Positions 18,569 through 22,193 of a stretch of DNA of 25,824 bases are shown piece after piece (position 1 is the first letter of the stretch; every line of letters starts with the position of its first letter). Position numbers and translations under genes: made by a program. Under the pieces are notes generated by a model. It was not told where the DNA came from. It saw only the letters and a list, made by a program, of their open reading frames with translations, and ran no database searches. Origin of the DNA: a virus. Location: positions 1 to 25,824 of the IMG/VR virus record IMGVR_UViG_3300034062_001679; one strand, written 5' to 3'.

Positions 18569-19138
18569 TTACTCTATCTCTTCCACTTGCACGGTAAAGT
18601 TAATATCTAGCAGCGTTTCCATGCGCTCGACGTATTCACGGAAGTTAGCATCAGTTTCGATCTGGTTGCGCATGTTACGCAAAGCGTGTATAACTGACGA
18701 ATGGTGCTTGTTAAATAGCCGCGCTATCAATGAGTTAGATAGTCGGTACTTCGTGAACAGGAAGTACATGAGCAGGTAGCGGCATTCTACGACCCAATGA
18801 AAGCGGGATTGCGCTACAAGCTGCTCCCATGTGCAGTTATAGAGCTTGCAGAATTGGTCTATAAGGTTTAGGATAGCTGGGTTTTGCGTGTTTGGTCTCA
18901 TGGTATGTTTTTCTTTGATGATTTTTAGTGCTCTTCTAGTGTCTGTTATGTGTGAAGGGATCATGTGCCTATTGAGTGCTATGTACAAATAATCCTGCAT
19001 CGCGCGCTTGCCTACTTCTGGGAATAGGTCGGGCTGTTTAAGAGCCCATGTTACGAACCGCGAGCGGTGCACATCAAAGTATTTCAGGATCGTGTCGGAC
19101 ATTGCCAGCACCTCATTTAGCTTTCTATACCGCCTCAT
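18569..19138 (-). CDS. DnaA domain IV-like DNA-binding protein
   Basis: 189 residues. Residues about 88-165 match the DNA-binding C-terminal domain of DnaA: VECRYLLMYFLFTKYRLSNSLIARLF, then NKHHSSVIHALRNM at the position of the DnaA signature (RDHSTVIHA), then an acidic helix. No AAA+ ATPase motif is present; residues 1-87 are a helical region I do not recognise. Such a protein could bind DnaA-box sequences to start, load or regulate replication. It is encoded just after the initiator genes and has an ideal ribosome site (GGAGGGTAAAT). The helix-turn-helix could alternatively act as a repressor. Confidence 0.8.
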   Translation of the reverse strand: MRRYRKLNEVLAMSDTILKYFDVHRSRFVTWALKQPDLFPEVGKRAMQDYLYIALNRHMIPSHITDTRRALKIIKEKHTMRPNTQNPAILNLIDQFCKLYNCTWEQLVAQSRFHWVVECRYLLMYFLFTKYRLSNSLIARLFNKHHSSVIHALRNMRNQIETDANFREYVERMETLLDINFTVQVEEIE

Positions 19139-19258: not shown

Positions 19259-19798
19259 TTAAGCGGTTCTAACGCGCTCTCTATTCCTGTTGATCCAATC
19301 GACATCTAGCTTGAATCCCCATTTAGGTTCTTTTTGCGTGATAATGATAAGTGCCCATTCGTCAAGTTCCTGTTGAGTCAGGTATTTTTTCTCTGGCTTT
19401 ACTTCTTCCCTCGGTTCGTATCTGTTACCATCTACGCGATCATTGGTCTTGCGTAATGTTTGCTCGTATTGCTCTGGCGTTGGATAGAAGTCCGCTAACT
19501 CCAGCGTTGGGTCAACTCCCTTAAACTTCCAGTCACCCTTCATTATCCAGTCTTGCGCTCGCTGCGCTTGGTCGGGATGATAGCCGTCTGCTAGAAGCTG
19601 TTGAGTAAAGTATTCAAGGCGCATATCGTCAATCTTGATTTTGCGACCCATCGCCAAGTGCAAAACCATTTCCCTGACCCAAACCGCCAATGCTCGATTC
19701 GATGCCTCGCTTTCGGAGCCATTCATTGCTGTCTGCAAAGAGTTTTTGATAATCGATCTCCACTTCGCGATCGCCGAGTGTTCGTTTTTGTGTGCCAT
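19259..19798 (-). CDS. Replication accessory protein, possible helicase loader-like
   Basis: 179 residues, starting 170 bases inside the end of the initiator gene in another frame. KIKIDDMRLEYFTQQLL, then HPDQAQRAQDWIMKGDWKF, then ADFYPTPEQY resembles the N-terminal helical domain of phage helicase loaders, in which a W..fP(P/T) motif follows paired helices; this is a tentative match. The start at 19798 has AGGA seven bases upstream. Later ATGs at 19669, 19651 and 19624 have weaker ribosome sites, so the longer form is preferred. Position between the initiator and the DnaA-like gene supports a replication role. Confidence 0.65.
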   Translation of the reverse strand: MAHKNEHSAIAKWRSIIKNSLQTAMNGSESEASNRALAVWVREMVLHLAMGRKIKIDDMRLEYFTQQLLADGYHPDQAQRAQDWIMKGDWKFKGVDPTLELADFYPTPEQYEQTLRKTNDRVDGNRYEPREEVKPEKKYLTQQELDEWALIIITQKEPKWGFKLDVDWINRNRERVRTA

Positions 19799-20567
19799 TG
19801 CTGTTCCTAAAGTTGTTTTTGTTCCTGTTCCAATTCCTTGCTGTTGCCTTCCAATCCTTCATAGCGTTCTTGCCCACTTTCCAGCCGTTGGCTGTGTAAT
19901 GGTCGAAGAATTTGTTTGCTTCCTCCTGCGTGCTGCCTAGCTCAATGAAGTAGTCAAGGATTTCTTGACAACTTGGGCGCGTGAATGCGCGCGAGCGCAT
20001 ACTCACACTATCTATTTGTTCTTCTATTCTTTCCTTCTTCCCTTCTTTACTTCTTATTATAGCGCCCTTATCGCGCCCAGATTGCGCCCTAATCGTGCCC
20101 GAATCGCGCCCTGTTTCGTTCTCATGTCCTTGTAACTTGTTATAGTTTATAATAGTTAGGTGTGCCGTTTTCGTGCCCTGTTTTGACTCTATCATGCCGT
20201 CTTTTTTTGCGTGCATTATAAAGTTACGTACCATCTTTTCAGTAGTATAACTACGTAACGCAATAGTCTTGTAAGACATAACAAGTTCACCACGCTGCAC
20301 TTCTACAATTATGCCATCACGTACCCTTTTACGGGTTTCCCATTGGGCATTAAACAACATGACTAACCAGATGTTAGTATAGTTAGGATTCTCAAACAGC
20401 CAATGGTTCTGTAGCTTACGATGGACTTTAATCCAAGATTCATCCATAGTATAAATAGGAAACCCAGATGCTAACTGATTTTCCTCGGTCATGAATGAAC
20501 CGCCCGCACCGTCTCCGGTGAAGGAATCTTCTAGCATCTGGGTCGTATTGTCTATGTTGTTGTTCAT
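19629..20567 (-). CDS. Phage replication initiator-like protein (winged helix)
   Basis: 312 residues. Residues about 42-145 are a winged-helix domain of the phage replisome-organiser type: WIKVHRKLQNHWLFENPN, then GELVMSYKTIALRSYTTEKMVRNFI, then LTIINYNKLQG. Residues about 198-250 (CQEILDYFIELGSTQEEANKF, NGWKVGKNAMKDWKATARNW) match the C-terminal part common in these proteins. The linker between them is encoded by five 11-bp iterons, so this gene probably carries the origin it acts on. The last 57 codons are shared, in another frame, with the next gene. The ribosome site is weak (CCTAAAG). Confidence 0.8.
   Translation of the reverse strand: MNNNIDNTTQMLEDSFTGDGAGGSFMTEENQLASGFPIYTMDESWIKVHRKLQNHWLFENPNYTNIWLVMLFNAQWETRKRVRDGIIVEVQRGELVMSYKTIALRSYTTEKMVRNFIMHAKKDGMIESKQGTKTAHLTIINYNKLQGHENETGRDSGTIRAQSGRDKGAIIRSKEGKKERIEEQIDSVSMRSRAFTRPSCQEILDYFIELGSTQEEANKFFDHYTANGWKVGKNAMKDWKATARNWNRNKNNFRNSNGTQKRTLGDREVEIDYQKLFADSNEWLRKRGIESSIGGLGQGNGFALGDGSQNQD
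20020..20060. other. AT-rich, strand-skewed tract beside the iterons
   Basis: From about 20029 to 20057 the plus strand is almost pure pyrimidine (T and C) and the minus strand almost pure purine, inside the initiator gene and directly against the iterons. Easily melted, purine-skewed DNA next to iterons is the known layout of the lambda-type origin. A second AT-rich segment lies on the other side at about 20127..20160. Low-complexity linker coding (Lys/Glu/Arg) could also produce the skew, so this is supportive rather than decisive. Confidence 0.45.
20061..20111. repeat. Five 11-bp iterons, probable replication origin
   Basis: GCGCCC (one copy GTGCCC) starts at 20062, 20073, 20084, 20095 and 20106, exactly 11 bases apart. 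On the minus strand the units read GGGCGCGATTC, GGGCACGATTA, GGGCGCAATCT, GGGCGCGATAA and GGGCGCTATAA. Two weaker words (GTGCCG at 20162, GTGCCC at 20173) are again 11 bases apart. Because 11 is not a multiple of three, the repeat cannot be explained by a simple protein repeat. The location inside the initiator gene is like that of the iterons in lambda O. Confidence 0.75.
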
Positions 20568-21227: not shown

Positions 21228-21318
21228 CTACCCTCCTATTATGTACGTATATCTCAAGTGCGATATACATCACTAGCAGCACCAAGCTGATCGCTAGCCC
21301 CCTGTCGATTGCGTCCAT
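21220..21318 (-). CDS. 32-residue single-pass membrane protein
   Basis: A short gene with the ribosome site GGAGGACAC. It begins MDAIDRGLAISLVLLVM and ends in a charged tail (YVHNRRVDD). One membrane helix of about 19 residues fits the positive-inside rule with its C-terminus inside. Its start overlaps the end of the DNA methyltransferase gene by 25 bases and its stop overlaps the next start by eight. The good ribosome site, complete membrane helix and nested overlaps support a real gene. Function is unknown. Confidence 0.6.
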   Translation of the reverse strand: MDAIDRGLAISLVLLVMYIALEIYVHNRRVDD

Positions 21319-22193
21319 GTGTCCTCCATCTCTTGTATTGTTTTGAAAATCTGCAATGCTACCTGTGGCACTATTGCGTTGCCGTAGCCCTTTATGCTTT
21401 CTCTTCGCCACTTTGGAATGGTAATACCGTCCAGTTCGGTGGGAATCCCATCATCTCCGCCACAAATAGGGGGTTGAGTTGGGAAGTTTTGCCAGTCGGC
21501 TTGTAAATCGAAGCTATCACATCGGTCAGATTTGCCTTGCCACGGTCGATGCTCGCATTGCCACGAGCTTCTTGGCACTTGGGTGTCGGAAGCAATCCGC
21601 TCTTGGCTAGTTGTGGCAGAGCTGCACCGTACCTGACTCCCTTGCTGTTGACGTTGAGCCCGTTCTCGTCCAGCTTCCTGTTGCCCCTCTCCAAATCCGA
21701 GGCTTTCGGAGTAGGCAACAATCCATATTCGATCTCTTCTGTGGGGAGCACCGACGGCGCAAGCTGGAATAATAAACGGCTGTACGGCGTAACCTTCAGC
21801 TTCCAATTCAGCACACACCTCTTCGAGTACCACGCCCCCATTCCAAGTAGTAAGCCCGAAAACATTTTCGCCCACGACGTAGGTAGGTCTGATTTCTCGA
21901 ATAGCTCGTAACATGTGGGGCCAGAGGTGACGATCATCGTCTTTGCCTTTGCGCTTGCCCGCTGCGCTGTACGGCTGACAAGGGAATCCGCCTGTGAGAA
22001 CATCAATAGCTCCTTTGTGAACATTGAAATCTGTATTTGTGATGTCAGCATAGCTTATCGCCTCTGGCCAGTAATGATGTAATATCTTCCGTGGAAACTC
22101 TGCCCATTCACAATGAAAGATATTATCCCATCGCATCCATTCGGCGGCAAGATCGAAGCCGCCAATCCCCGAAAAAAGTGAGCCATGACGCAC
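21294..22193 (-). CDS. C5-cytosine DNA methyltransferase
   Basis: 299 residues. Motif I is SLFSGIGGFDLA (residues 5-16), motif IV GGFPCQPYS (68-76, catalytic Cys72), motif VI GENV (108-111), motif VIII HRRDRIWIV (151-159) and motif X YGNAIVPQVA (270-279). Residues about 160-235, the target-recognition part, are short, polar and Gln/Arg/Ser-rich. It methylates cytosine at C5, probably to shield phage DNA from host restriction; the target site cannot be read off. Residues about 64-267 are also read in another frame by the nested gene. The ATG overlaps the stop of the VRR-NUC gene. Confidence 0.95.
   Translation of the reverse strand: MRHGSLFSGIGGFDLAAEWMRWDNIFHCEWAEFPRKILHHYWPEAISYADITNTDFNVHKGAIDVLTGGFPCQPYSAAGKRKGKDDDRHLWPHMLRAIREIRPTYVVGENVFGLTTWNGGVVLEEVCAELEAEGYAVQPFIIPACAVGAPHRRDRIWIVAYSESLGFGEGQQEAGRERAQRQQQGSQVRCSSATTSQERIASDTQVPRSSWQCEHRPWQGKSDRCDSFDLQADWQNFPTQPPICGGDDGIPTELDGITIPKWRRESIKGYGNAIVPQVALQIFKTIQEMEDTWTQSTGG
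21392..22003 (-). CDS. Out-of-frame gene nested in the DNA methyltransferase gene
   Basis: A 203-residue frame lying completely within the methyltransferase gene, +1 to it on the same strand. The ATG at 22003 has the ribosome site AAAGGAG six bases upstream; a longer form from 22051 lacks one. Features are TSGPTCYELFEKSDLPTSW, SRLLFQLAPSVLP, two LLPTPK motifs (residues 95-100 and 137-142) and a C-terminus with LNPLFVAEMMGFPPNWT (176-192) and LPFQSGEE. I recall LPTP/MMGFPxxWT proteins as a recurrent, unnamed phage family next to C5 methyltransferases. It could aid or modulate the methyltransferase. The chance that it is a conserved shadow frame is not excluded. Confidence 0.65.
   Translation of the reverse strand: MFSQADSLVSRTAQRASAKAKTMIVTSGPTCYELFEKSDLPTSWAKMFSGLLLGMGAWYSKRCVLNWKLKVTPYSRLLFQLAPSVLPTEEIEYGLLPTPKASDLERGNRKLDENGLNVNSKGVRYGAALPQLAKSGLLPTPKCQEARGNASIDRGKANLTDVIASIYKPTGKTSQLNPLFVAEMMGFPPNWTVLPFQSGEEKA

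Follow-up and report, generated by a model that had tools for sequence, protein, structure and literature searches.

The locus analysed here raises a simple question: is an array of short repeats lying inside a phage initiator gene the origin from which the phage replicates, or do the repeats serve some other end? The DNA is IMG/VR record IMGVR_UViG_3300034062_001679 (25,824 nt, a 25.8-kb fragment, henceforth the window), for which a preliminary description made from the letters alone had suggested a probable origin of the lambda O style. In our analysis the array is very probably where the initiator binds within a theta-type replication origin that the initiator gene itself contains, an origin of the same kind as SPP1 oriL, to which a helicase, probably that of the host, would be brought.

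The repeat array and the gene that contains it

Five 11-bp iterons run head to tail at 20057..20111 on the minus strand, within the gene of a 312-aa initiator (19629..20567, minus strand). Read along the gene, from 20111 down to 20057, they are GGGCGCGATTC, GGGCACGATTA, GGGCGCAATCT, GGGCGCGATAA and GGGCGCTATAA, with the consensus GGGCGCGATnn and a core word, GGGC(G/A)C, that recurs five times at an exact 11-bp step. On the plus strand the words start at 20062, 20073, 20084, 20095 (GTGCCC) and 20106, precisely where the preliminary description had placed them, and the two weaker words that it had reported further on, again 11 apart, are likewise present at 20162 (GTGCCG) and 20173 (GTGCCC). These mark a pair of sites at 20157..20178 (minus strand; GGGCACGAAAA and CGGCACACCTA) in the wing-coding part of the gene. 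By sequence comparison, genes with two other winged-helix types (B and C, see below) have a pair of their own word at the matching position. The array is the strongest short-period repeat of the window: the two top Tandem Repeats Finder scores, 60 (period 11) and 67 (period 22), both fall on it, and its best 44-bp stretch matches itself at lag 11 in 34/44 positions, compared with a maximum of 31 in 300 composition-matched random windows (maximum taken over periods 8–40).

Adjoining the iterons, and following them in the direction of the gene, is an AT-rich purine tract with 8-bp GAAG repeats (20019..20056, minus strand; composition and Tandem Repeats Finder). The strong purine/pyrimidine skew that had been ascribed to it is real (72% AT, 88% pyrimidine on the plus strand over 20019-20061), and the 42-mer richest in pyrimidine in the whole window (38/42) falls here. 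Its 8-bp period exceeds that expected from synonymous recoding (p 0.001, see below). By its composition, the tract would qualify as the adjacent AT-rich unwinding element of an SPP1-type origin.

Judged by sequence, the initiator appears to belong with the SPP1 G38P and DnaD-like replisome organizers. It matches PHROG 2514 (DnaD-like helicase loader) at E 4.5e-22 and SPP1 gene 38 by tblastn (E 9e-6, 31.8% identity, aa 45-147, 33% of the query), and its winged helix and that of SPP1 G38P fit one common alignment. The protein consists of a winged helix, a linker and an exchangeable C-terminus. For the winged-helix DNA-binding domain (aa 44-146; 20130..20438, minus strand) AlphaFold2 gave a winged-helix model with a pLDDT of 81.5 (residues 40-157, 34-row alignment), in which the predicted recognition helix spans about aa 110-122 (TTEKMVRNFIMHA); a full-length single-sequence model reached a pLDDT of 33 and was left unused. 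Foldseek searches of a viral library retrieved named replisome organizers (E 3e-9 to 2e-5) and, below them, phage O proteins (E 1.7e-3 to 6e-3), while the PDB yielded by fold only generic winged-helix regulators (E > 0.008) and by sequence weak matches. Among annotated phages, relatives of the winged helix occur in those of Vibrio, Shewanella, Staphylococcus, Listeria, Lactobacillus, Bacillus and Cellulophaga. A scan of genome contigs returned matches to the C-terminus only (Veillonella seminalis and a Rickettsiales MAG), from which the host was not identified, and the distant homologues of the C-terminus (L019-L076) mostly have other N-terminal domains and carry 12-bp (codon-phase) or 10-bp repeats. 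The array itself sits in the linker that follows the winged helix, beside the easily melted tract, as the preliminary description had it.

Periodicity in DNA and in protein

The repeats could in principle be a feature of the protein only, an 11-residue repetitive disordered linker grown by duplication, whose DNA has no role. Selection on DNA had been argued at the outset from the 11-base step being out of phase with codons. That argument is insufficient alone because three iterons make 33 bp, or eleven codons, and thereby repeat in the protein as well (GRDSGTIRAQSGRDKGAI), and linkers of this initiator family are generally of low complexity. The conclusion nevertheless stands on a different footing. 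We recoded each of 55 linkers with synonymous codons from its own gene, leaving the protein intact, and in the window the natural sequence exceeded its recoded copies at period 11 with p=0.0005, the lowest value that the test can give. The same was true at p<0.05 for 67% of the 55 genes (Fisher 8e-47, a value overstated by the relatedness of the genes and to be taken only as a guide), whereas the control periods of 10, 13 and 14 bp reached this level in only 2%, 9% and 4% of them (Fisher 0.99, 0.58 and 0.96). Codon choice adds an 11-bp periodicity beyond what the protein demands. Period 8 exceeded recoding in 27% of the genes, mainly those of the window's group and of marine relatives with a similar purine tract. 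In one marine clade (L145-L190) the 11-bp pairs (CAACC-type words) are weak, and a more pronounced 8-bp purine repeat, possibly a second element of the origin, lies directly downstream of them.

Repeat spacing in related phages, the comparison proposed in the preliminary description, gave a concordant picture. In a set of 80 viral loci picked by winged-helix pattern alone and reduced to 41 non-redundant genes, the best non-triplet period of the linker was 11 bp in 19 and 22 bp in 8 (27/41 together). Clear arrays in this set occupy a fixed position, starting just past the winged helix at about 102–115 codons from the start of the domain. Exceptions do occur among the homologues: Vibrio phage 1.167 and Pseudoalteromonas phage SL25 have 23-bp units, the same periodicity analyses detected no clear 11-bp array in Listeria A118 and ctekg1, and in the marine clade mentioned above the array is weak. 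The 11-bp step is kept in proteins whose linker sequences are unrelated, and a change of DNA-binding domain is accompanied by a change of word, as described below; with these observations added to the recoding results, we regard a purely protein-level explanation as very unlikely.

Co-change of the winged helix and the iteron word

If the initiator reads the iterons, its DNA-binding domain and their sequence would be expected to change together. The comparison of the window with 28 close relatives (29 genes, some of the contigs being near-duplicates) recovered five words: A, GGGCGC (window only); B, GGGCAC; C, AACACACG; D, AACACGCG; and E, approximately TCCnCCAAAAG. The word follows the winged-helix type in 29/29 genes, with one word per type, while N-tails and C-termini are exchanged: winged-helix type B is found with three C-termini and two N-tails, type C with two of each, and word D with two unrelated C-termini. 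In a Mantel test of 33 genes, word similarity correlated with winged-helix identity at 0.55 (p 0.001) and with the C-terminus at 0.19. It had been stated beforehand that an origin would be contradicted if close relatives retained the initiator but had lost the phased repeats; an array is kept in 28/28.

Where the exchange takes place can be seen by comparing the window with one relative, L003, to which its DNA is 97-100% identical up to codon 36, about 30-60% identical across the winged helix and iterons, and 83-100% identical again from codon ~176 to ~246. This pattern, together with the free exchange of N-tails and C-termini, indicates that the exchanged unit is the winged helix plus the iterons, and five types of this unit were seen within one phage group. 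We give roughly even chances to a broader proposal, namely that this unit is a portable specificity cassette swapped whole between otherwise near-identical phages, so that siblings' origins go unread by each other's initiator, and that a readable code between recognition helix and 11-bp word extends across phages of Bacillota, Pseudomonadota and Bacteroidota. A separate observation is that L208 and L005 have a near-identical word (GGGCACA) with a winged-helix identity of only 34%, possibly by convergence.

The co-change also bears on the identity of the reader. An origin could have its iterons read by another protein, e.g. the host DnaA or the product of a nearby gene for a 189-aa protein (18569..19138, minus strand) made up of DnaA domain IV (DNA-binding) only (Pfam Bac_DnaA_C, E 1.7e-9). 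This stand-alone domain, lacking the ATPase, is encoded 1 kb from the array and conserved in 10/10 records. It is, however, 98-99% identical among records with differing words, G000 (word A), G004 (C), G006 and G007 (both B), and cannot therefore set the word, which follows the winged helix instead. We consider another reader extremely unlikely and take the initiator's own winged helix as the probable one. In the 36.8-kb record G007 (the source of L088), the end of this DnaA-domain-IV gene is present again as a 165-bp copy in bases 1-165, perhaps a terminal redundancy or an assembly overlap.

Another neighbour offers a candidate partner. A 179-aa ORF (19259..19798, minus strand) overlaps the 3' end of the initiator gene by 170 bp (19629-19798) in a different frame and had no family match in Pfam or PHROG. 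Its identity is 69-91% in relatives with the same initiator C-terminus; otherwise it is 27-34% or the ORF is absent. Such a pattern is as expected of a partner of the initiator C-terminus, and one might guess at a helicase loader. Neither the window nor nine relatives of up to 36.8 kb, records that may be fragments, yielded a DnaB, which suggests the use of a host helicase. Further along, the overlap between two frames on the same strand (21294-22193 and 21392-22051, minus) spans 660 bp, and each of them matches a family of phage DNA methyltransferases (phrog_363, E 6.8e-75; phrog_1008, E 2.6e-25). No stop interrupts the inner (+1) frame in 78/80 viral loci, although these loci were chosen by the inner frame, which biases the test towards it; synonymous recoding of the outer frame predicts about 4.2 stops in the inner one and leaves it open 1.6% of the time. 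From these sequence comparisons, the two frames look like a widespread dual-coding gene pair.

Comparison with known in-gene origins

The closest known counterpart is SPP1, whose gp38 binds the direct repeats of oriL, located within gene 38 and provided with an AT-rich unwinding element (PMC6316719). Our recoding test found in gene 38 an 11-bp array directly after the winged helix (codons ~115-137), followed by an AT-rich tract. The window shares with it a G38P-homologous winged helix, direct repeats within the initiator gene past the DNA-binding domain, at the same place and with the same step, and the AT-rich element. It differs in that SPP1 has its own word (approximately AAACGACA/AAAAGACA) and a different C-terminal domain, and in that gene 38 is followed by a phage-coded loader (gp39) and helicase (gp40), whereas the window has no DnaB that we could find. 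A second origin like oriR of SPP1 was not found within the 25.8-kb fragment.

The lambda O gene likewise has iterons of its own in mid-gene, with an AT-rich tract alongside (PMC7466680). The lambda comparison made in the preliminary description holds for this way of working and for a distant likeness in fold, the window's winged helix resembling phage O proteins, but the nearest relative is SPP1 G38P/oriL, and the annotated lambda iterons are of 18 bp at 20–24-bp steps and not at 11. Membership of the lambda O family was rejected, the initiator having no Pfam match, to this family or any other, at E 0.1 and only the distant fold likeness (E 1.7e-3). When lambda O was put through the recoding test, periods 20 and 23 scored and 11 did not, as its annotated iterons predict. 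In Staphylococcus phage 80alpha, the origin has been shown genetically to be embedded in the gene of the G38P-like initiator ORF20 (PMC5499656); this protein is more distant than that of SPP1, with an N-terminal domain of another type, and as a second positive control it gave no 11-bp array by the same test. The 11-bp step thus goes with this winged-helix family and not with in-gene origins generally.

A DNA-binding domain with matching sites in its own gene would fit autoregulation too, the array then being an operator through which the initiator or another regulator controls transcription of the early operon and not the start of replication. The array lies, however, mid-gene, about 390–510 bp past the start codon and beside the easily melted tract. 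SPP1 uses the same layout as oriL (PMC6316719), and in the more distant 80alpha provision of the initiator gene in trans does not work, a sign of an origin in cis (PMC5499656). An operator in place of an origin is on these grounds highly improbable, though the array may have a dual use. Membership of the window's array in the SPP1-type family of in-gene origins is well supported as far as such data reach, and the initial proposal of a probable in-gene origin is strengthened by the SPP1 layout, the recoding excess and the co-change of word and winged helix. GC skew, which had been put forward as a check, is negative almost throughout the window and has no turning point, because nearly all genes are on one strand.

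At such an origin the initiator would bind through its winged helix to the iterons of its own gene, in head-to-tail order with one iteron to each helical turn, which would place the bound proteins on one face of the DNA. The complex of initiator and iterons could then untwist the adjoining AT-rich purine tract. A helicase, probably that of the host given that no DnaB was found, would be recruited by the exchangeable C-terminal part, possibly together with the product of the next gene, and replication would start at the array.

Exchange of the N-terminal domain with retention of the C-terminus has been described for the replisome organizers of Krappator (Oenococcus) phages (PMC12403621). The available part of that account does not mention accompanying repeats, while in the window's group the repeats move with the domain. 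SPP1-type in-gene origins are already known; what is new is an 11-bp rule that spans phages from several phyla, together with the swappable cassette of reader plus site. No statement of the 11-bp rule was found in the literature searched, which was mainly open-access.

The genes concerned are mostly annotated as 'hypothetical' or 'DnaD-like', and 11-bp steps just past the winged helix would allow the origins of such phages to be found from sequence alone. The natural swaps of domain plus site supply numerous matched pairs with which to study DNA recognition by the protein and to test whether phages exchange origins to avoid cross-recognition by siblings or satellites.
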